Shown here piece by piece: positions 1,434 to 42,040 of a DNA stretch of 44,158 nucleotides. Both the position numbers and the translations under genes were made by a program. How positions within the stretch are numbered: position 1 is the stretch's first letter; each line of letters opens with the position of its first letter. The stretch is from a virus. The notes beneath the pieces were generated by a model. It was not told where the DNA came from, ran no database searches, and worked only from the letters and a program-made list of their open reading frames with translations. The DNA lies in IMG/VR virus record IMGVR_UViG_3300038421_000078, positions 1 through 44,158 of that record. The stretch is one strand, 5' to 3'.

Positions 1434-2637
1434 TTGCCGCCTCACCAAATAAAGGCAAGTCATGGTAGCCATCGCCCGCCGCCTCAACCGCCGCGCCGCT
1501 CCGCCAATCATCCAAATCGTCCAGCTCCAACCGCTTGCGGGCGATGTCATGCAGGTAGGTGTAGCTCAAATCGCAGCCCACCCCGCGCCGCCCCAACTTG
1601 CGGGCGACCATCAAGGTGGTGCCGGAACCGGCGAAGGGGTCAAAGACGGTGCAAGGAATGGGGTCGGCGGGCGGGCAGTCGCAGCCAGGACGCCAGCCAA
1701 GTGTCTTGACTTGATAGCTCCCATCGCCATCGGCTCCACCTCTCTTGCTGCCGGTCCTTCTGGACACACCTTGCTCTATATCAAGGTTGTGGTCAACCCA
1801 GCTTCCTTTCCCGATGGTTCCGCCGCTTTTTCTCACCACCCTCGCCCACCCCGCGCCGCACACCGGGCAGCAGCCCCGCTCGGACGTGCCCGCCTTGATG
1901 CAAGGCTCCACCAGGCGCGGCGGGTAGGTGGCGAAGTGGGCAAAGGGAGTCGGCGCGGTGGGGATTGTCCAGACGGTGCGGATGTTGCGACTAGATACGA
2001 TGTCTGGCGCAAGACGCGTCCAACCCTTGTGCCCATTTCCGTCTGCAGCGTTCGCCGCTTCTTTTGGTGGCGACAACTTTGTACCCCTCGAGTGAGTGTT
2101 GCCGGTAACGCCCTCCTTCACCGCCTCCGCATCGAAGTAATACCGCTCGCGCTTGGTCAGCAAAAAAACGTATTCATGCGCCCTCGTTGGCCTATCGGTG
2201 ACGCTTTCGGGCATGGGGTTGGGCTTGCTCCAGATGATATCAGAGCGCAGATACCAGCCGTCCGCCTGAAGTGCGAAGGCCACGCACCAGGGGATGCCTA
2301 CGAGGTCTTTGGGTTTTAGACCATTGCCATTCGCCCTCATTCCGCTGTTGTACGATCTACCGACCCCGTTATCGCTGCTACCATATTCTCTGTGTCCACC
2401 GCTGCTCGCGTATGAGTCGCCCAGGTTCAACCACAGCGTACCGTCATCTCTCATCACCCGCCACACCTCGCGGAACACAGCCACCATGTTCGCAACGTAT
2501 TCATCAGGCGTAGGCTCAAGCCCCAACTGACCAGGTACGCCGTAATCGCGCAGCGACCAATAAGGCGGGCTGGTAACAACCATGTGGACGCTGCCAGAGG
2601 CGAGCGGGATAGCCAGGGCGCTAGAGTTTACGAGCAT
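1426..2637 (-). CDS. DNA methyltransferase, N4-cytosine/N6-adenine type
   Basis: This 403-residue enzyme should transfer a methyl group from S-adenosylmethionine to an exocyclic amino group of A or C in DNA. The catalytic motif IV is TSPPYW at residues 22-27. The AdoMet-binding motif I, DPFAGSGTT, lies near residue 333. Motif IV before motif I, with the recognition region between them, is the beta-class order. A CPVCG pair in the middle and a later CDCP could bind zinc. No restriction enzyme is adjacent, so it is an orphan modification enzyme, probably protecting phage DNA from host restriction. ATG at 2637 overlaps the end of the upstream gene by 17 bases. Target specificity cannot be read from sequence. 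Confidence 0.9.
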   Translation of the reverse strand: MLVNSSALAIPLASGSVHMVVTSPPYWSLRDYGVPGQLGLEPTPDEYVANMVAVFREVWRVMRDDGTLWLNLGDSYASSGGHREYGSSDNGVGRSYNSGMRANGNGLKPKDLVGIPWCVAFALQADGWYLRSDIIWSKPNPMPESVTDRPTRAHEYVFLLTKRERYYFDAEAVKEGVTGNTHSRGTKLSPPKEAANAADGNGHKGWTRLAPDIVSSRNIRTVWTIPTAPTPFAHFATYPPRLVEPCIKAGTSERGCCPVCGAGWARVVRKSGGTIGKGSWVDHNLDIEQGVSRRTGSKRGGADGDGSYQVKTLGWRPGCDCPPADPIPCTVFDPFAGSGTTLMVARKLGRRGVGCDLSYTYLHDIARKRLELDDLDDWRSGAAVEAAGDGYHDLPLFGEAANG

Positions 2638-2866
2638 CGCGCGCCTCCACCAACACCTGTTTCACCGGCCCATCCCGCCGCACCACCAGCAACGCGCCAC
2701 GCCCGCCGCGGCGCAGCTTCGTGCCGGGCGTGAACGTGCCACTACGCAGCATGTGTTCGACGCTCTCGGCAGACAGGCACGCGCCGCGCGAGAAGCCGCC
2801 CGCGCGGTCTGGGTCGTGCTCGACCTGGTAGTAGGACGCGAAGTTGTCAAGGGGCTGGCTGGGCAT
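2621..2866 (-). CDS. Small protein of unknown function
   Basis: This 81-residue protein starts at ATG 2866 (MPSQPLDNFASYYQVEHDPDRAGG). That keeps the overlap with the upstream stop (2847) to 20 bases, and the longer frame to 2956 would bury most of that gene. The C-terminal half, TKLRRGGRGALLVVRRDGPVKQVLVEA, looks like a small beta sheet with a basic turn. It lies in a run of overlapping small genes between two methyltransferases and may be an accessory of the DNA methyltransferase whose start it overlaps. No homologous family was recognised. Confidence 0.5.
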   Translation of the reverse strand: MPSQPLDNFASYYQVEHDPDRAGGFSRGACLSAESVEHMLRSGTFTPGTKLRRGGRGALLVVRRDGPVKQVLVEARDARKL

Positions 2867-3050
2867 AAGCAACCGCTCCAACGAAGGCAGAAAAAACCTT
2901 GAGCATCCGCGCCAGTCTGGGGTGGCCAATCGGTAAGCCGTTGTACGTGCGTGCAATCAGCCCGGCCTCGGTAATGCGTGTTATTTCGAGTGCGTTCTCT
3001 GCATACCCGTTTCCGGTCAAGCGCATCAGCGCAATCTCATTCTTCTCCAT
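2847..3050 (-). CDS. Small protein of unknown function
   Basis: This 67-residue protein starts at ATG 3050 (MEKNEIALMRLTGNGY), overlapping the stop of the upstream gene (3037) by 14 bases. The core EITRITEAGLIARTYNGLPIGHPRLARMLKVFSAF looks helical and mildly basic at its end, and could be a small DNA- or protein-binding module. It is part of the tightly overlapped cluster 2621-3312. No motif identifies it. Confidence 0.5.
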   Translation of the reverse strand: MEKNEIALMRLTGNGYAENALEITRITEAGLIARTYNGLPIGHPRLARMLKVFSAFVGAVAYAQPAP

Positions 3051-3312
3051 GACCCATCTCCTCGAAACTGCGAACGAAATAACCGGCCGTGGTCGCCAGC
3101 ATCTTGGCAAGCAGCCGCTCCCACAACGCGCCCGGTAGGCTGCGGTACAGCGCGTCACACAGCACCTGGGCGCGCTCGTCGTAATACTGGCCCTGCTTGA
3201 TCAGCGTGTCGAAGTGCTGGAGCTGATCGGTAATGCGTATCTCGGCCCGGCGCTCTTGCTCTCCGGGCACGACAGGCTTAGCGAATGGAATATAAACGAT
3301 TTCAACGCTCAC
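3037..3312 (-). CDS. Unknown protein in replication operon
   Basis: This 91-residue protein begins MSVEIVYIPFAKPVVPGEQERRAEIRIT and continues with long amphipathic helices (LQHFDTLIKQGQYYDERAQVLCDALY). The ATG at 3312 overlaps the stop of the class I methyltransferase gene as ATGA, so it is translationally coupled. Function is not recognised. The overlaps on both sides argue that it is a real gene of the same transcription unit. Confidence 0.6.
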   Translation of the reverse strand: MSVEIVYIPFAKPVVPGEQERRAEIRITDQLQHFDTLIKQGQYYDERAQVLCDALYRSLPGALWERLLAKMLATTAGYFVRSFEEMGHGEE

Positions 3313-4154
3313 TTTTCACCTTCCTTCTTCTCGACCGTCGCGCCTTGCCCGGTCTGGATGCGGTACGCCAGCAGGAACTCGGCCAGCAGGTGGTCGTAAT
3401 TGGGCGCGCTGTACACCGGCGTGATCAGTGGAACAGACTTGCACAGCGCCAGAATATTGGACGGGATCGGCAGATGGGTCGCCGTGCCAACGTGCTGGGT
3501 CATCATCAAGGGTTGCCAGCCGGTGCGCAGCAATAAGGGGCGCAAGGCTTCGGGTGTGAACAGGCAAGGGTGCGCCAGGCGCGCCCCGGATGGCGAATAC
3601 AGGGCGTGAGGGACTTCGAGCAGCAGCAAGGCGGCGCCGAAAGCCACTTTTTGCGCTGTCCATAAGCCAACGAACGGGTCCTCCATGTGCTCTAACGTGT
3701 GGATACAAGTCACCAGGTCGTAGGTTAGCCGCGGCGCTTCGTCGCTGTTGCGGTACACCAGGTTGCCGCGCTCTTTCTGGAACTCTGCGTGCGCTTCGGA
3801 CGGCTCGACGCCGCTGGCCTCAGCGCCCAGCCCTTTCAACGCCTCGACCAGCACGCCCGCCGAGCTGCCCACGTCCAGCGCCAGAATGCCAGGGCGCACG
3901 ATGGCCTGCAAATACGGGGCCAGCGCCCGCACCCGCTGCGCCTGAGCCACCAGGTCGGTCACGGTTGGCCGCGCCGAGCCGCTGACCTCGACGCGGTATT
4001 GCTCGCGGTAGTAGTCCTTCGGGATTTCTTCCAGGTGGAAGATCAACCCGCACCGCCCGCACAGGTAGTATTGGATTTCCTGGCCGGTTTCCTTGCGCCG
4101 CCCGGCGAAGAACGGTCGGTAATCATCGCTGCCGCAACTTCTACACTGGTTCAT
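3309..4154 (-). CDS. Class I SAM-dependent methyltransferase with zinc ribbon
   Basis: This 281-residue protein has an N-terminal zinc ribbon (C4xxC7 and C32xxC35) followed by a Rossmann methyltransferase domain. LDVGSSAG at 93-100 is the AdoMet-binding motif I and GVEPS the acidic end of strand 2. LVTCIHTLEHMEDP is the motif typical of the Methyltransf_23/UbiE-like group, which acts on small molecules, sugars or proteins rather than DNA bases. The Zn-ribbon plus methyltransferase layout is common among sugar-modifying C-methyltransferases. In a phage operon it may instead modify a nucleotide, glycan or host factor. The ATG overlaps the stop of the helicase-loader gene. The fold is clear and the substrate is unknown. 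Confidence 0.8.
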   Translation of the reverse strand: MNQCRSCGSDDYRPFFAGRRKETGQEIQYYLCGRCGLIFHLEEIPKDYYREQYRVEVSGSARPTVTDLVAQAQRVRALAPYLQAIVRPGILALDVGSSAGVLVEALKGLGAEASGVEPSEAHAEFQKERGNLVYRNSDEAPRLTYDLVTCIHTLEHMEDPFVGLWTAQKVAFGAALLLLEVPHALYSPSGARLAHPCLFTPEALRPLLLRTGWQPLMMTQHVGTATHLPIPSNILALCKSVPLITPVYSAPNYDHLLAEFLLAYRIQTGQGATVEKKEGEK

Positions 4155-5080
4155 TTCGGGCCTCCAATTCCTCTCAAATCTCTCCCGCTCATCAGCACCC
4201 TGGTCGCGTCCTGAAAGCGGGATTGTAGATACTGCCAGCCGTCCGGCAGGTTGCTTGGGTCGGCGTTGGTGGCAAAGGCGGTGGCGGATACATCTCGGTT
4301 GCGGTGGCGGTGGTCTAAGAGCGCCATGATGGTGGCGCGCGCCCAGGGCGTGGTGCTCACCCGGTCAACTTCGTCCAGCGCCAGGAAGGGCAGGTTGCCG
4401 TAAGCGTCGCGGATGGCGCCGCTCGACCCCTCGCCCTCGCCATACGTGGCGCGCAGCGCGTCCAGCAGATCCTCGGCCACGACGTACTCAGCCCGCACCC
4501 CGGCCCGCACCATCCCGGCGACCATCCCCCGCAGGACGCCGCTCTTGCCCACGCCATTCGTGCCGTGCAGCACCAGCCAGCCCTTCGGGTCCGGGGCGGT
4601 AGCCAGCATTGCGTGGGCGGCCTGCACCGCGGCGGTCTTGCCGCTCTCCGCGCCGTAGGTGTCCACGCGCCAGCCCCGCTCGGCCTGGGTTAGCCCGCAC
4701 TCCGACCAGTAGTATTCAATCAGCGCCAGCCGGTCGGAACACACCGGGCAAGGGTAGGATTGGCGCTCGACAGTGTACCAGCCGTCGCCCAACCAGGCGC
4801 CGACCGTGTGCCTGCCGACCGGGGCGTTGTGGTAGGGGCCTGAAAGCGCCACGGTCATCACGACCGCGCCGAAGTCGCCGCAGTTAGGGCAATCCTTGCC
4901 GCCGCCAATCTCCGCAAAGACCACCCGGCTGCCGTTCTGCCGCGCCAGCTCCAGCCGGGCCAGGCCGGCCGGGGGCAGCTTCGGGATGCTTCCAACCGGA
5001 AGCAACGAGCATTCGACCGGAAGTGGCAGGGTGGCCGGCATATCCCGTAGACCCCTGGCGATCTCACCGATGGTTTTCAC
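4151..5080 (-). CDS. DnaC/IstB-type helicase loader
   Basis: This 309-residue AAA+ ATPase is expected to load the replicative helicase at the phage origin. It has two cysteine pairs (C64/C67 and C111/C114) forming an N-terminal zinc-binding module, Walker A GTNGVGKS at 173-180, and Walker B LALDEVD at 233-239. A sensor-like FATNAD and an arginine-finger-like SRFQDATRV follow near the C-terminus. The zinc module before the ATPase resembles the DnaC/phage loader arrangement. No phage helicase is visible, so it probably recruits host DnaB. It lies just downstream of the initiator in the same operon, and its stop and start overlap both neighbours by ATGA. Confidence 0.85.
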   Translation of the reverse strand: MKTIGEIARGLRDMPATLPLPVECSLLPVGSIPKLPPAGLARLELARQNGSRVVFAEIGGGKDCPNCGDFGAVVMTVALSGPYHNAPVGRHTVGAWLGDGWYTVERQSYPCPVCSDRLALIEYYWSECGLTQAERGWRVDTYGAESGKTAAVQAAHAMLATAPDPKGWLVLHGTNGVGKSGVLRGMVAGMVRAGVRAEYVVAEDLLDALRATYGEGEGSSGAIRDAYGNLPFLALDEVDRVSTTPWARATIMALLDHRHRNRDVSATAFATNADPSNLPDGWQYLQSRFQDATRVLMSGRDLRGIGGPK

Positions 5081-5319
5081 GCCGCAGCCTTCTCGTGCGT
5101 GCGCTTGATGAGCGCGGCCTGCATTCGGAGGCCGCGTTGGTAGAGTTTCGCAAACTCCGGACCAACAGGCTCGTCACAACTGTAGGCATGGTGGTACGAT
5201 TTGCCCCGTTTCTTGTCGTCCCACCGCCAGATAGTGACGCTCAGGCGCTGGCTATCGGGCCGGATATGCGGGTATGTTGAAACTTCGACTTCAACATCAG
5301 TGATCGGTTGTGCGTGCAT
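5077..5319 (-). CDS. Small protein between initiator and loader
   Basis: This 80-residue protein begins MHAQPITDVEVEVSTYPHIRPDSQRLSVTIWRW, suggesting a beta-rich start. A basic region and a C-terminal helix (EFAKLYQRGLRMQAALIKRTHEK) follow. AAGGAG is placed 7 bases before the ATG, inside the last codons of the initiator gene, and the stop overlaps the loader start as ATGA. Function is unknown. The position suggests a replication accessory. Confidence 0.6.
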   Translation of the reverse strand: MHAQPITDVEVEVSTYPHIRPDSQRLSVTIWRWDDKKRGKSYHHAYSCDEPVGPEFAKLYQRGLRMQAALIKRTHEKAAA

Positions 5320-5321
5320 GG

Positions 5322-6032
5322 TTATTCTCCTTGTAACTTCTTCCTGTACTCCTCCGCCAGCGGGTGGCGGGGGTTGTCTTGGACGAAGCGGCGCATCATT
5401 TCACGATCGGCCGCGTCGCCTTCTAAGATGAGTTGCGCTGGCTTGGGTGGCTTGCCTTTGACATCGAACACCCCTTGCCATCCGTGTTCGATGCTCTGCT
5501 CTAGCATGGCGATGGCAGTCTCTTCGGAGTATGCAGCCAGTTTCTTGAGCAGGCGCTCCGAGGCAAGCGGGGTGAGCGGGTGTTTGATCTGCTTGCGGTG
5601 GGTCTGGAAGTCCTGCCAGGATAGGGCGAATGGGCCATTGAATGGCAGTGGTGGATTCTTTAATGGTTCTATTGACGGTTTAATTAAAGGTTCGGGTGAC
5701 TCCCGCGTCACCCCCCCAGTGCTACAAATGTCACCCCCCTCGGCCTCAGATGTCACCCTGGGGTGACATTTTGTCACCCCCCTGATGTTGTACAGGTTGC
5801 ACCCGAACGGCCCCTCGTTGGTCAGTATCCCGATCTCGTTCTCTTTCTTGAGCTTCCGCAAAAGGCGCTGCACGTGCCGCTCGCTGAGCCTGGTCTTGCG
5901 GGCCAAGGTGTCAACAGACGGGAAAGAGTTGCCGTTATCATCCGAGAAGTCAGCCAGGGCCAGGAGCAGCAGCAGCGCGCCGCCCTCTTGTTTTGAATTG
6001 TTCCAGACGTGGGTCATTACCGCGATGCTCAT
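5322..6032 (-). CDS. O-like replication initiator, winged helix
   Basis: This 236-residue protein has a helix-turn-helix domain at about 20-80 (FPSVDTLARKTRLSERHVQRLLRKLKK plus a wing ending in YNIRG). A low-complexity Pro/Gly/Thr linker spans about 82-140, and a helical C-terminal domain (WQDFQTHRKQIKHPLTPLASERLLKKL) follows. This is the layout of phage initiators that bind iterons with the N-terminus and the helicase loader with the C-terminus. The iterons lie inside the gene, in the codons for the linker, as in lambda O. The start at ATG 6032 overlaps the upstream stop as ATGA. The frame to 6062 is less likely. The loader gene follows one gene downstream. Confidence 0.75.
   Translation of the reverse strand: MSIAVMTHVWNNSKQEGGALLLLLALADFSDDNGNSFPSVDTLARKTRLSERHVQRLLRKLKKENEIGILTNEGPFGCNLYNIRGVTKCHPRVTSEAEGGDICSTGGVTRESPEPLIKPSIEPLKNPPLPFNGPFALSWQDFQTHRKQIKHPLTPLASERLLKKLAAYSEETAIAMLEQSIEHGWQGVFDVKGKPPKPAQLILEGDAADREMMRRFVQDNPRHPLAEEYRKKLQGE
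5694..5783. other. Iteron cluster, candidate replication origin
   Basis: The 7-mer GTCACCC occurs four times in the plus orientation, at 5707, 5730, 5752 and 5773, three of them followed by further C residues. It occurs twice inverted, ending at 5700 and 5767. Copies 5750-5758 and 5761-5769 form a 9-bp inverted repeat with a 2-base centre. Three copies carry a preceding T (TGTCACCC). The cluster sits in the linker codons of the initiator gene, which matches the lambda-type origin in which the initiator binds iterons within its own gene. The repeat pattern is seen directly and the origin role is inferred. Confidence 0.65.
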
Positions 6033-6214
6033 GGCTGCCCCGCCCACTCTTTCCCGCAACACGGGCAGTAATTCAGGCTTTGCATTGCCCCAACCGTTGG
6101 CTCGCCGTTATCATCTGGCAGCCAATTGATTACAGACAGGTAAACATCGCAGTTGAGACAAATAAGTACCGGGGCATTGATAAAATCTGATTTATCAAGT
6201 TTCGCAATAATCAT
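6029..6214 (-). CDS. Small zinc-ribbon-like protein
   Basis: This 61-residue protein is the first gene of the replication-initiation transcript. It has LICLNCDVY near residue 20 and NYCPCCGKEW near the end, giving two cysteine pairs about 30 residues apart, which is a typical zinc ribbon. The start chosen is ATG 6214 because GGAGGT lies 6 bases before it. The upstream in-frame ATG would leave that site inside the gene. The stop overlaps the initiator start. Function is unknown, perhaps regulatory or DNA-binding. Confidence 0.65.
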   Translation of the reverse strand: MIIAKLDKSDFINAPVLICLNCDVYLSVINWLPDDNGEPTVGAMQSLNYCPCCGKEWAGQP

Positions 6215-6232
6215 AGCGACCTCCAAACAAAA

Positions 6233-6346
6233 AGACCTGCACTTACCCAGGTGGCCTTCAAGAGTGGCAATCAGGATTTTCGCTGGTTAGGCGGAGAGAG
6301 AAAGCCACCTGGGTAAACACAGGTCTATCTCCTGGATCGCCACTCT
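6233..6346 (-). ncRNA. Structured leader RNA with interleaved pairing
   Basis: There are two long complementary pairs in crossing order. Segment A (6233-6258) pairs with A' (6301-6326) as 7 bp, a 3x3 internal loop and 13 bp. Segment B (6261-6275) pairs with B' (6331-6346) as 8 bp, then 3 and 3 bp around small defects. The order A-B-A'-B' cannot form two nested hairpins, so it is either a pseudoknot or a switch between two folds. On the minus strand it lies in the roughly 165-nt leader between the promoter at 6387-6395 and the ribosome site of the gene at 6029-6214, ending 7 bases before that site. A cis-acting translational control element is the likely role. Confidence 0.55.
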
Positions 6347-6386
6347 ATGCCACGCGCGCCACAAGTCACCATCTCGCAGCACCCCA

Positions 6387-6395
6387 ATTATACCA
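6387..6395 (-). promoter_or_regulatory. Extended -10 promoter of replication genes
   Basis: The minus strand reads TGGTATAAT, a perfect extended -10 box with TATAAT at 6392-6387. No good -35 is present at the usual distance, which extended -10 promoters do not need. Predicted transcription starts near 6380, giving a leader of about 165 nt. The ten bases GTGGTATAAT recur exactly at the promoter of the HNH gene (11860-11869). Confidence 0.65.
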
Positions 6396-7055
6396 CTACT
6401 CACCATTACCAACTACCCTGAACTCAAGCACCCACACCCAGGGGTTGAGCGCCCAGGGGTAGCCGCGCTTGGCGTTGATTTCGTCCCACAACTGTTGATA
6501 TTCTCGCACAGCGGCATAGCCGTCGTTCCTACTTGACATCTGGCCCAGCGCTGGCCTTCCGGTGCAGCCCTCAGAGCGAGCGTCATTTACACTAATCCCC
6601 TGCACTCGCTCAACTCGCACGCCCGTTAGTTCGAGCGTTATGCGGCTGGCCCAGCGGGGCATGAAGCGTGCCGAGCGTGTTCTTCCGGCCCACTCCGGCT
6701 TCGGGCCATCAGTAAAATACCAGACCCGCGAACGGCCAACAATCGGCACTTTGCTACCAGGGAGTTTGTCGTATTGTTTATCAACCGCCCAGGTTTCTTT
6801 CACCCAAAGCCGGTCGCCGGGTTGACCGTATGGGCAGGGAAAGCCCTCGTTACTCGGATATACGCGGGCTGTTTCTTCGGCACTTACCGGGAAAGGCCAC
6901 CACGCTATCCAACCCAAACCAGACCCGTCCTTGTGGACTGACTGAGCCGGGCCACCGATATTCGCAGGCTTGCATATTCGCCTTGTCTGCGTCTTTCGCC
7001 CTTCCAATATCGCCCGCACCATTGGTGCGGTGAAGAGGATTGGTCGTTCTTTCAC
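6396..7055 (-). CDS. ASCH-like phage protein
   Basis: This 219-residue protein belongs to a conserved phage family recognisable by RPILFTAPMVRAILEGRKTQ at the start, GDRLWVKETWAV in the middle, RWASRITLELTGVRVERVQ, and the tail LWDEINAKRGYPWALNPWVW. The family has a PUA/ASCH-type beta barrel predicted to bind nucleic acid or modified nucleotides. No catalytic role is established for it. The start overlaps the stop of the upstream 80-residue gene as ATGA. The promoter of the replication genes lies just beyond its stop codon, so expression may continue from the repressor/tRNA transcript. Confidence 0.7.
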   Translation of the reverse strand: MKERPILFTAPMVRAILEGRKTQTRRICKPANIGGPAQSVHKDGSGLGWIAWWPFPVSAEETARVYPSNEGFPCPYGQPGDRLWVKETWAVDKQYDKLPGSKVPIVGRSRVWYFTDGPKPEWAGRTRSARFMPRWASRITLELTGVRVERVQGISVNDARSEGCTGRPALGQMSSRNDGYAAVREYQQLWDEINAKRGYPWALNPWVWVLEFRVVGNGE

Positions 7056-7294
7056 TCCTCACCTCCCACGGTCATCACTTCCCCGCTCGCCAGCGTCACG
7101 GTGCAGGTCATCCGCTGCGGGGCGAAGCTGGCGTTGTACCCGGCGCACATCCCGGCCAGGTGCTTGACGGCTGCCGTTTCGGACGGGAACACCCAGGGCT
7201 TCATCTCGGTTCCCTGGCGGCGGCGCATTGGTTCGCCGCCGGTCAAGACGTTGAAGCCGCCATTGCATGGTTTGATCAGAGCCTTAGTTTCCAT
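7052..7294 (-). CDS. Small protein of unknown function
   Basis: This 80-residue protein begins METKALIKPCNGGFNVLTGGEPM, with a C-terminal part (RMTCTVTLASGEVMTVGGEE) that looks like beta hairpins. The start at ATG 7294 has AGGTG upstream. A GTG six bases earlier is possible. The stop overlaps the ASCH-like gene start. A perfect 7-bp hairpin (7309-7326) sits directly upstream of its ribosome site. No family was recognised. Confidence 0.55.
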   Translation of the reverse strand: METKALIKPCNGGFNVLTGGEPMRRRQGTEMKPWVFPSETAAVKHLAGMCAGYNASFAPQRMTCTVTLASGEVMTVGGEE

Positions 7295-7413
7295 ATTCAC
7301 CTGTGTGTTTCGGAGTCATCTCCGAAGAAGTTGTGTGTTCGGTTCGGTGCCCCGTGAGCCTCGCTGACCGGTCAAAGAGCGAAACTGTAACTGCCGCGAG
7401 GCACCGAGCCTAG
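7295..7413 (-). ncRNA. Structured RNA between tRNA and next gene
   Basis: Directly 3' of tRNA-Gly on the minus strand, TCGGTGCC pairs with GGCACCGA and the overlapping CCTCGC pairs with GCGAGG further in, giving a long imperfect stem across about 65 bases. A separate perfect hairpin at 7309-7326 has the stem TTCGGAG/CTCCGAA and a 4-base loop. No reading frame with a ribosome site is present. These could guide tRNA 3' processing or control translation of 7052-7294. The structures are seen in the sequence, and any role is inference. Confidence 0.4.
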
Positions 7414-7484
7414 AGCGGGTAGTGGGGATCGAACCCACGATGTCAGCTTGGAGGGCTGCTGCCTTGCCACTTGGCGACACCCGC
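7414..7484 (-). tRNA. tRNA-Gly (anticodon UCC)
   Basis: This 71-nt cloverleaf has a 7-bp acceptor stem GCGGGTG/TACCCGC with one G-U and a D arm GCC-AAGTGGCAA-GGC. The anticodon stem is CAGC/GCTG plus an outer mismatch, with loop CCTCCAA. The T arm TGGGT-TCGATCC-CCACT (T loop TTCGATC) is canonical. The anticodon TCC is at 7452-7450 and reads GGA. The CCA end is not encoded. It lies downstream of a long structured non-coding stretch in the leftward transcript. It probably supplements a glycine codon for phage translation. Confidence 0.93.
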
Positions 7485-7872
7485 TTGGTTTGCTGGCCTT
7501 CCACCAGCCTGACCGTGTTTACGGCTTGGAACAGTACATCCGCGTTCCTTGCTTACTTACCGGGGCGGTCTTATCTTGTGCCGCCCCTGGGGTCGTCGAA
7601 ATTGTGTGGGCGGGGACTCGGCTTACAACTCACCTGCTCTTACGCATCGCAGGAGCGCCTTATTTTTCGTCCGAGGCGGACGCCTTAGCCCTGTCGGTGG
7701 GGGTTCGGAGCTACCGGCAATGCCGTCCGCGGCCGATCCTGTTTATCGTTGTAAGTTGCTCCCCGCCCTGTCAGTGGATCCCGAATTTATGTTCTCCCTG
7801 GCCGGGCGAGCCACGTTCACCGACCCGCCCGGCCACCAAAGGAGAAAGGGGCCATGATGCCCCGCGCGGTTG
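7485..7872 (-). ncRNA. Long structured non-coding stretch before tRNA
   Basis: About 390 bases with no convincing gene separate the repressor gene from tRNA-Gly. On the minus strand several stems are visible: an 8-bp GCCGGGCG/CGCCCGGC near 7801-7833, CGTCCG/CGGACG with a 3-base loop near 7665-7682, CCTGC/GCAGG with an 11-base loop near 7632-7652, GGGGCGG/CCGCCCC near 7562-7588, and GGAAC/GTTCC with an 11-base loop near 7527-7548. This density of stems suggests a functional RNA, co-transcribed with the tRNA, rather than a spacer. The strand is assumed from the neighbours. No known RNA family was recognised. Confidence 0.4.
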
Positions 7873-8142
7873 TCAGGCCGCGCGAGCGGGGTCGCTCCCT
7901 GGGGGGGACAGGGAAACGGCCCCGCTCGCGGGGTCTGACTTCGCCAGCGCGCTGTGAGACGGCCCGTGCTCCAGGATTGCCAGGTACATTTCGATGGCGT
8001 CACGCACCAGTTCGCTGGTCGTGATCTGCCGCAGCCCGGCGGCGCGCTTGACGCGCTTGCGCATTTCGGGCGACAGCGAGAACGTGCTCTGCACCATCTT
8101 CTCTGGGCCAATCTGTGGGTGTCCGGGTCGTTTCGTATCCAT
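7873..8142 (-). CDS. Ribbon-helix-helix repressor
   Basis: This 89-residue protein has a ribbon-helix-helix core at about 16-58 (QSTFSLSPEMRKRVKRAAG, then TTSELVRDAIEMYLAIL). It has the short beta strand, helix A and helix B pattern of CopG/Arc-type dimers. The C-terminal tail is low-complexity and its codons form a large hairpin. It is divergent from the rightward operon and probably binds the palindrome at 8167-8178, controlling both promoters. ATG 8142 lies 6 bases after the predicted -10 box, so the mRNA may be leaderless. No ribosome site could fit. Confidence 0.75.
   Translation of the reverse strand: MDTKRPGHPQIGPEKMVQSTFSLSPEMRKRVKRAAGLRQITTSELVRDAIEMYLAILEHGPSHSALAKSDPASGAVSLSPPGSDPARAA
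7881..7930. repeat. Large GC-rich hairpin in repressor 3' codons
   Basis: CGCGAGCGGGG (7881-7891) and CCCCGCTCGCG (7920-7930) are perfect 11-bp inverted repeats. Inside them is a nested CCCTG/CAGGG stem. The structure occupies the last codons of the repressor gene. It lacks a T run, so it is more likely an attenuating, processing or mRNA-end-protecting structure than a simple intrinsic terminator. Confidence 0.5.
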
Positions 8143-40057: not shown

Positions 40058-40122
40058 ACTCGAAACGGCACAGAGATAAGCCTGTGCTGTCACCAGGGAT
40101 TTGGCCTGGTCTGAATGAGAGT
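40058..40122 (+). ncRNA. Hammerhead-like ribozyme, one-base core insertion
   Basis: Arranged as a type II hammerhead (open stem II). Stem II is ACTC (40058-40061) with GAGT (40119-40122). GAA is at 40062-40064. Stem III is 9 bp with one G-U (40065-40073, 40082-40090), beginning with the expected A-U pair. C at 40091 is the cleavage base. Stem I is ACCAGG-GATTTGG-CCTGGT (40092-40110). The core reads CTGA-AT-GA instead of CTGA-N-GA, one base too many. It lies in the leader of 40146-40235, so cleavage would free the mRNA 5' end near 40092. Confidence 0.7.
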
Positions 40123-40145
40123 ATCCACCAAAAGGAGATGACGCA

Positions 40146-40235
40146 ATGACCACTCTAACGATTGTCCGAGAATACCAGGGGTACATGCTCAATCCCGTTA
40201 TCCAGGTTGACTATCGCAGGAGCTATCGAAGATAA
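40146..40235 (+). CDS. 29-residue protein after hammerhead leader
   Basis: The sequence begins MTTLTIVREYQGYMLNPVIQ and ends basic (DYRRSYRR). AAAGGAG is 7-8 bases before the ATG, and the stop overlaps the next ATG (TAATG), so it is very likely translated and coupled. It is the first gene downstream of the hammerhead-like element. Too short for any domain, it could be a leader peptide or a functional small protein. Confidence 0.55.
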   Translation: MTTLTIVREYQGYMLNPVIQVDYRRSYRR

Positions 40236-40705: not shown

Positions 40706-40873
40706 CCCCCACCGCCAGCCGCATGGCTGGCGCCTGCCCGCTGCCCGAGGGCGCAGTAATGCGAACGGGTTACAACGGAGCGAGAGCCACGGCGCTCCCC
40801 GGCGGACAGGTGCCAACGATGCACCATAAACCAGCCCGTCAAGGCTGGACTAGAACACAAGGAGAATAAAATC
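40706..40873 (+). ncRNA. Structured leader of the pilin-like gene
   Basis: This 168-nt non-coding stretch contains, in order, CGCCAGCC-GCAT-GGCTGGCG (8-bp stem, 40715-40734) and CCCG/CGGG enclosing CTGC/GCAG (about 40739-40772). GGAGCG/CGCTCC (about 40781-40802) is next, and CCAGCC-CGTCAA-GGCTGG (about 40832-40849) lies just before the ribosome site AGGAG. GGCGCCTG and CAGGTGCC can close the middle part. The first hairpin may also end the upstream transcript. No known riboswitch or ribozyme core was recognised. Confidence 0.4.
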
Positions 40874-41485
40874 ATGAGCAGACACCAGAATATGACACTT
40901 TGTTGCTTGACCGGAAAGCAACACCAAAACACCTGTAACTATTGGTACGCGGTGCGCGATGATGTAATTTGGCCGCACACTGCATTTACCACCCGTGAAG
41001 CATTGATGCTCTGGCTGAATGAGCGCGGCCTGAAACTCACCGAGCCACTGCCGGAGGAGCGCGGAACCTGGCAGTATCAGAAAATCATTGGCACATACAG
41101 CCGGAATATGATAATAGATCGGGGCGAATTCGACGCACTGCAAGGCCCGACGACCACCGAACTAAGCAACGGCGATTACACCTCTGCCAAAATCACGGAC
41201 GACCAGGACGGGAACAAGGTTATCAATTACCTGAACCCGAACGTGCGCGGACGTCTGGTATACAACTACGACGCAACCCGCAACGCACGCGACGCTGGCT
41301 ATCCCTTCCCGTCCGAGTCCGGCCAGGGTATGATCGAGTTTGCCCTGATCCTTGCCCTGGTGGCGGTGGTGGGTATCGTGGTGCTGACCATCCTCGGGCC
41401 GCAAATCCAGGCTGCATACCATCAGGTCATGTGCGCTCTTCCGAACGTGCCCGCCGACATCATCTGCGCGGTGGCGAGCAACTAA
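40874..41485 (+). CDS. Phage protein with C-terminal Flp-pilin-like helix
   Basis: In this 203-residue protein, residues 1-140 look like a soluble phage accessory domain (FTTREALMLWLNERGLKLTE, IIGTYSRNMIIDRGEFDALQ, TELSNGDYTSAKI, VINYLNPNVRGR). Residues 147-186 read SESGQGMIEFALILALVAVV and onward, matching Flp/TadE pilins. It has a class III prepilin site G150 with Glu at +5 (E155) and Phe at +6, then a 22-residue membrane helix and ILGPQIQAAYHQV. In true Flp pilins this site is near the N-terminus. Here it is near the C-terminus after a full domain. It could interact with the host Tad pilus machinery or simply be membrane-anchored. Confidence 0.65.
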   Translation: MSRHQNMTLCCLTGKQHQNTCNYWYAVRDDVIWPHTAFTTREALMLWLNERGLKLTEPLPEERGTWQYQKIIGTYSRNMIIDRGEFDALQGPTTTELSNGDYTSAKITDDQDGNKVINYLNPNVRGRLVYNYDATRNARDAGYPFPSESGQGMIEFALILALVAVVGIVVLTILGPQIQAAYHQVMCALPNVPADIICAVASN

Positions 41486-41540: not shown

Positions 41541-41756
41541 ATGAGAGCGACCGAACGTGAACTTTACGCCGCTGTCGAGCGAGGAGAATTGACTCCTCGC
41601 GAAGCGCACGAAGCACTTATGGAGCTTGATTTAGAAAATGAATACCGCCGCCATGTCTCCCGCGAGGGCAACCGTCCATACAATGAAAACCCAGATGGGT
41701 GCTGGTACTGCGGGAGCGACGCACACCACAGTCAAGATTGTCGAGAACGGGACTAA
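41541..41756 (+). CDS. Small zinc-knuckle protein
   Basis: This 71-residue protein has an N-terminal helical, charged part (ERELYAAVERGELTPREAHE) and a C-terminal CWYCGSDAHHSQDC. This is a Cys-x2-Cys-...-His-x4-Cys zinc knuckle of the type that binds single-stranded nucleic acid. A GCCGG/CCGGC hairpin (41509-41529) precedes its AGGAG site. Its stop lies 5 bases before the second hammerhead ribozyme, whose cleavage would separate this gene's mRNA from the next. Confidence 0.65.
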   Translation: MRATERELYAAVERGELTPREAHEALMELDLENEYRRHVSREGNRPYNENPDGCWYCGSDAHHSQDCRERD

Positions 41757-41761
41757 TCGGC

Positions 41762-41818
41762 ACTCGAAACCGCGCAAGGGGCGCGGTCGCCGGGGATTTG
41801 GCCCGGCCTGACGAGAGT
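41762..41818 (+). ncRNA. Type II hammerhead ribozyme
   Basis: All core bases are present. Stem II is ACTC (41762-41765) with GAGT (41815-41818). GAA is at 41766-41768. Stem III is ACCGCGC-AAGGG-GCGCGGT (41769-41787) and starts with the required A-U pair. The cleavage base is C41788, giving the triplet GTC. Stem I is GCCGGG-GATTTGG-CCCGGC (41789-41807). CTGA is at 41808-41811, C at 41812 and GA at 41813-41814. Stems I and III are closed and stem II is open, which makes it type II. Predicted self-cleavage falls between 41788 and 41789, in the leader of 41840-42040. Confidence 0.88.
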
Positions 41819-41839
41819 AGACATAAGGAGATAGAGACG

Positions 41840-42040
41840 ATGTACACACTAACATATGCTGGGCCACACGGCAAAGGGTCAATGATCTTTGACAACCCCA
41901 CCAGCGCAAACTATTGGACGAACAGCATGGCGCGCGCCGGCAATATCCGCTTCACCCTGCGCCGCCTATGCAAACGCCATGCGCAGATGATGTCATCCGA
42001 AAAGCACGGCAAGTGCTGCAAGATTTTGCAGGAAGGATAA
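41840..42040 (+). CDS. Small protein behind hammerhead leader
   Basis: This 66-residue protein (MYTLTYAGPHGKGSMIFDNP, then TSANYWTNSMARAGNIRFTL) has a basic, cysteine-containing end. The start at ATG 41840 is set by AAGGAG at 41825-41830. The longer frame passes through the ribozyme and the previous gene. Its mRNA would start with a 5'-hydroxyl if the ribozyme cleaves, which can change stability or translation. Function is unknown. Confidence 0.6.
   Translation: MYTLTYAGPHGKGSMIFDNPTSANYWTNSMARAGNIRFTLRRLCKRHAQMMSSEKHGKCCKILQEG

Follow-up and report, generated by a model that had tools for sequence, protein, structure and literature searches.

Type II hammerhead ribozymes between the genes of a phage operon and a recurrent variant of their core

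We describe a complete type II hammerhead ribozyme with the canonical core, HHR-2, at positions 41762–41818 (+ strand) of virus record IMGVR_UViG_3300038421_000078. The whole stretch of 44,158 nucleotides is called the window below; it carries terminase, major head protein and other phage genes. HHR-2 is almost certainly a real hammerhead fold, and its sequence makes cleavage very probable. We suggest, with a probability of roughly two in three, that it cuts the mRNA of a rightward operon in cis and, together with a second hammerhead (HHR-1), splits it into separate end-protected messages. HHR-2 belongs to the already known phage type II hammerheads. A recurrent core insertion, a loop subgroup and gene-boundary statistics go further, and for these three no paper was found in the open literature, most subscription journals being outside the scope of the search.

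Structure of the two hammerheads

HHR-2 is open at stem II. The 5′ strand of this stem, ACUC (41762–41765), pairs over 4 bp with the 3′ strand GAGU (41815–41818). It is followed by the GAA (41766–41768) and by the 7-bp stem III hairpin ACCGCGC-AAGGG-GCGCGGU (41769–41787; loop AAGGG, ΔG −12.3 kcal/mol), in which A15.1 at 41769 pairs with U 41787. The cleavage triplet GUC occupies 41786–41788, and its place in the hammerhead frame predicts a cut between C17 and the first base of stem I (41788/41789). The 6-bp stem I hairpin GCCGGG-GAUUUGG-CCCGGC (41789–41807; loop GAUUUGG, ΔG −11.9 kcal/mol) leads to the core CUGACGA (41808–41814). Hence, all conserved core elements (CUGANGA, GAA, the A15.1–U16.1 pair and H17) and three stems of 7, 6 and 4 bp with the open end at stem II are in place. 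The initial annotation had placed an intact type II hammerhead here with cleavage at 41788/41789; direct reading of core, stems and coordinates agrees with it, and the cut keeps the status of a predicted site.

The initial annotation also held that the absence of a match to any hammerhead covariance model would speak against the motif; both models that were run match. Rfam RF02276 (Hammerhead_II) matches 41762–41826 with 37.4 bits, just over its gathering score of 37. This score is marginal partly because the alignment leaves C41765 unpaired and treats two stem II bases as an insertion. In the printed alignment of 41762–41826 C11.1 is unpaired and stem II is offset by one, so that perfect pairs are under-credited. 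Our own covariance model R1, built from 13 sequences (HHR-2 and 12 copies from viral contigs), gives HHR-2 62.4 bits, HHR-2 being a member of the training set. The minimum-energy fold of HHR-2 recovers stems III and I; the outer helix in it runs partly through core bases.

The second hammerhead, HHR-1 (40058–40122, +; match to R1 at 40058–40125), is absent from the initial annotation. It sits 1,697 nt upstream of HHR-2, ahead of the small gene that opens the rightward operon, and R1, in whose training it had no part, finds it in the window with 38.8 bits (E 1.7e-7, without filters). HHR-1 has three stems of 9, 6 and 4 bp, the open end at stem II and a GUC triplet. Its stem III hairpin (40065–40090, 9 bp) carries the loop AGAUAAGC; the predicted cleavage site lies at 40091/40092, and the 6-bp stem I hairpin (40092–40110) has the same loop GAUUUGG as HHR-2. 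The core CUGAAUGA (40111–40118) contains one base inserted after A6. Because this is one base more than the conserved 7-base CUGANGA core, we file HHR-1, as read from its letters, as a core-insertion variant and not as a canonical type II member. It is absent from the RF02276 results for the window even with the threshold relaxed to E≤1, so that it stays under the Rfam cut-off.

Loop I is identical in the two hammerheads (7/7), stem II is ACUC/GAGU in both, and the differences in stems I and III, within an alignment that covers part of the stems, are compensated pairs. This pattern is what paralogues under selection on structure should show. The loop I of HHR-1 and its tail share a 5-bp match (CCAAA/UUUGG) at an unusual offset, which may be chance.

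The stem II-open circular permutation, the canonical core, the GUC, the phage context and the clusters flanking genes are features shared with the RF02276 hammerheads. Unlike these, the window copies have a 7-nt loop I, HHR-2 is devoid of the pseudoknot between loop I and the 3′ tail, and HHR-1 has the 8-base core. A pseudoknot of at least 4 bp was looked for in HHR-2 and rejected: the longest Watson–Crick run is 2. The pseudoknot is a majority feature of RF02276 and is not obligatory; known pseudoknotted type II ribozymes need it for high-speed cleavage.

Relatives in viral contigs

A pattern search in which the core and three stem II pairs were fixed returned 12 copies on 11 viral stretches, and stems I and III, left free by the pattern, form in essentially all 12 of them. 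In the alignment of these 12 copies with HHR-2, 94% of the pair cells contain a standard pair. Double changes number 54, compared with 16 for shuffles, and when the partner is shifted by one column, pairing falls to 38%. We regard this covariation as strong evidence for the hammerhead fold in the 13 phage copies.

HHR-1 and HHR-2 fall into a subgroup with a 6-bp stem I and the 7-nt loop I RAAUYGG (18 copies, 12 contigs). The stems of this subgroup covary, and in all its copies an A, which the search patterns did not fix, directly precedes the three core pairs of stem II. Three matches from a search with the loop pattern were all discarded as non-hammerheads. The group with 7-nt loops displays no excess of loop I–tail complementarity over shuffled tails, whereas loops of 8 nt or more show a clear excess. 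For this reason the 7-nt-loop group probably uses a different, non-Watson–Crick contact.

The core CUGAAUGA recurs in five other viral contigs (L041, L042, L047, L051 and L160). All six 8-base cores read CUGA-AU-GA, mostly with a 7-nt loop I. The copies of L041 and L042 come from a search in which CUGA could be followed by any two bases, and both have AU; those of L047 and L051 were added by a second pattern, and that of L160 is unselected, lying in a contig fetched for another copy. L047 and L051 have part of the downstream gene in common; otherwise no related proteins were found among the six loci. Rfam gives the five relatives 27–33 bits or no match. The 8-base core is commoner in the RAAUYGG subgroup (4/18 against 2/192 elsewhere), an association that is only suggestive because two of the four copies come from a pattern favouring that core.

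The chance rate of the 8-base-core pattern was gauged on bacterial and archaeal genomes, where a near-identical pattern gave 32 matches, none with all stems (I and III of at least 5 bp), which are thus attributed to chance; 12 of its 16 matches in viral contigs were likewise set aside as chance.

The insertion itself has a precedent, and its recurrence is the addition. The A6a core variant of low activity (Perreault 2011) resembles HHR-1 in having a single base added behind A6. Here, in contrast, six viral contigs share the insertion, which takes the form CUGA-AU-GA in every case, lies mostly beside a 7-nt loop I and is known from sequence. Phage PaP3, a candidate source of the published A6a insertion, gave no match with our scanner or with R1. 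The recurrent 8-base core means that counts based on Rfam overlook a subgroup, and its copies are a natural set for probing how far the hammerhead core tolerates an insertion. Tentatively, we propose that type II hammerheads are a phage operon-cutting system selected for two capped ends, in which the RAAUYGG subgroup, devoid of the pseudoknot, would include an active CUGAAUGA form missed by current covariance models and perhaps tuned to slower cutting or to another metal ion.

In L041 a sub-threshold match to the twister-P1 ribozyme (7851–7902, − strand; 38.6 bits against a cut-off of 67.2) lies on the strand that also carries the 8-base-core hammerhead, some 1.1 kb 5′ of it. This contig may carry two ribozyme classes in one operon.

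Gene boundaries and the proposed processing of the operon mRNA

HHR-2 takes up the space that separates the end of a CCHC-knuckle gene from the ribosome site of the gene that follows. The upstream gene (41541–41756, +; 71 aa) ends with the stop codon at 41754–41756. The initial annotation called it a zinc-knuckle gene, and the motif CX2CX4HX4C is indeed present in the translation, although Pfam returns no match; the phage collection has none either. Downstream, the Shine–Dalgarno sequence AAGGAG (41825–41830, +) precedes the ATG at 41840, 51 nt 3′ of the predicted cut, which opens a gene of 66 aa (41840–42040, +) with no relatives in Pfam or the phage collection. The intercistronic position claimed earlier is therefore correct, and in place of ‘phage leader’ the term intercistronic spacer is the better one. 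No reading frame ends shortly before HHR-1, which precedes the 29-aa first small gene of the operon (40146–40235, +; Shine–Dalgarno AAGGAG at 40132–40137), whose start lies 54 nt past the HHR-1 cut. DNA and protein queries of the phage collection with the HHR-2 region and both flanking genes gave no match, and we therefore have no orthologous locus for comparison. A scan for the major head protein across viral contigs found no relative, and the terminase scan yielded one 10-kb fragment with no hammerhead match on it.

The same placement is seen in a much larger set, which comprises at least 209 unique motifs in at least 152 viral contigs (at least 210 motifs with HHR-2), the contigs having been chosen by motif. 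The following fractions refer to the matches listed and are approximate, since gene calling was crude. An upstream stop codon lies within 20 nt 5′ of stem II in 154 of 198 assessable motifs (78%), with a peak at 2–7 nt. A Shine–Dalgarno sequence and a start codon within 70 nt downstream are found in 159/198 (80%). Both features together, strictly applied, occur in 129/198 (65%) and, when one motif is taken per contig, in 91 of 142; random positions on these strands show them in 2.2% of cases. The median distance from the cut to the start codon is 55 nt among the matches listed. Proximity to a stop codon may merely reflect the compactness of phage genomes, which counts against a processing role.

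Most contigs are single-copy, and in the 30 multi-copy contigs among the matches listed the strands are never mixed. The richest case is record IMGVR_UViG_3300038412_000035 (bases 2574–7558), where 11 type II hammerheads follow one another on one strand within 5 kb, most of them at gene junctions. The proteins flanking the motifs almost never cluster and are mostly unrelated, and the function is therefore independent of any particular gene. The closing hairpins are stable: median ΔG is −12 kcal/mol for stem III and −9.5 for stem I, and 87 of 123 stem III tetraloops are GNRA or YNCG (all among the matches listed), a bias suggesting selection for very stable hairpins. In the 2.3 Mb of fetched DNA there are 0 type I hammerheads and 1 weak type III, a count that is biased because the contigs were picked for type II motifs. 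A role as generic intercistronic mRNA cutters appears the best explanation of these data. With about 200 motifs, unrelated neighbours and up to 11 copies per operon, cutting between genes becomes a testable claim.

In bacterial mRNA decay 3′ hairpins impede exonucleases, and 5′ hairpins and ends other than a monophosphate impede RppH and RNase E. We infer from this that the cut would separate and stabilise the neighbouring messages. HHR-2 would cut in cis at 41788/41789 of the rightward polycistronic mRNA, and HHR-1 at the operon head and HHR-2 would together divide the transcript at defined gene boundaries. Since the open end of a type II hammerhead is at stem II, the cut falls between two closed hairpins, III and I; the type II permutation is thus the form that caps both products with hairpins. 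The upstream mRNA would acquire a 3′ end formed by stem III with a 2′,3′-cyclic phosphate, and the downstream mRNA a 5′-OH end flush with stem I, about 51–54 nt ahead of the start codon. Both hairpin-bearing ends should be shielded from exonucleases and from 5′-end-dependent decay, and the neighbouring genes may then decay and be expressed independently. We lean slightly towards such processing, with both ends capped, as the main function.

Cleavage might instead act as a translational switch, either exposing or hiding the downstream ribosome site or being gated by ribosomes that terminate at the abutting stop codon. In most motifs listed the stop codon lies 2–13 nt ahead of stem II, where a terminating ribosome would cover the GAAA strand, and in some relatives the Shine–Dalgarno sequence overlaps stem II. 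However, the predicted accessibility of this sequence in the window is hardly altered by the cut (0.88 before and after, and 0.51 to 0.53), so that a simple ribosome-site switch is unsupported; the median change over 161 motifs listed is 0.017, with a gain above 0.2 in 17%, however. Taken with the missing upstream reading frame at HHR-1, this makes a switch rather unlikely.

HHR-2 could also be a structural relic or a chance motif without activity, given that its Rfam score is just 0.4 bit over the cut-off, the pseudoknot is missing and the motif is simple. Yet the scan of the window for the full type II motif gives exactly one copy, HHR-2, and 400 dinucleotide shuffles of the window gave 1 motif with stems as good, that is about 0.0025 expected by chance per window. 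Stems that changed in a compensated way, both from HHR-1 to HHR-2 and among the relatives, and the exact intercistronic placement also speak against this reading, which we consider improbable.

Finally, the two co-oriented cutters 1,697 nt apart could excise the segment with five small genes between them, which a host RtcB-type ligase would circularise, the 5′-OH and 2′,3′-cyclic phosphate ends left by hammerheads being suited to such ligation. Most contigs, however, have a single copy, and a search by Perreault et al. for splicing or circularisation products from hammerhead clusters in bacteria was negative, which leaves circularisation very improbable.

The proposed separation of the operon mRNA at gene boundaries has precedents in earlier work. 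Type II hammerheads at gene boundaries of phages and prophages, in clusters flanking genes, were reported in 2011 (Perreault et al., PMC3088659). Clustered prophage hammerheads cleave in vitro, one triple array also in E. coli; of 18 consensus hammerheads assayed in vitro, 4 showed no activity (PMC3088659). Later papers still regard the role of these RNAs in phages and bacteria as open or unclear (PMC7151607, PMC6155905). In the haloviruses HF1/HF2 a hammerhead variant (HHphage) is located 13 nt ahead of a start codon, and the mapped 5′ end of the transcript falls no more than three nt from the cut site (PMC3088659). Like HHR-1, HHphage directly precedes the opening gene of an operon, in this case an early one of the virus. 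It differs by an insertion at 2a/2b beside stem I, by its origin in a virus of an extreme halophile and by the single copy reported.

Several other features of the window were noted. The gap between two early genes at 40706–40873 (+) has a branched RNA fold of −66.3 kcal/mol (z −2.7, equalled by 0 of 200 shuffles); it has no Rfam match and no similar phage DNA, and is possibly another structured RNA of the same operon. A 203-aa gene of the rightward operon (40874–41485, +) matches Flp/Fap pilin weakly at its C terminus (E 1e-4), under the Pfam cut-off. A tRNA gene lies at 7414–7484 (−) and scores 52.5 bits in Rfam.
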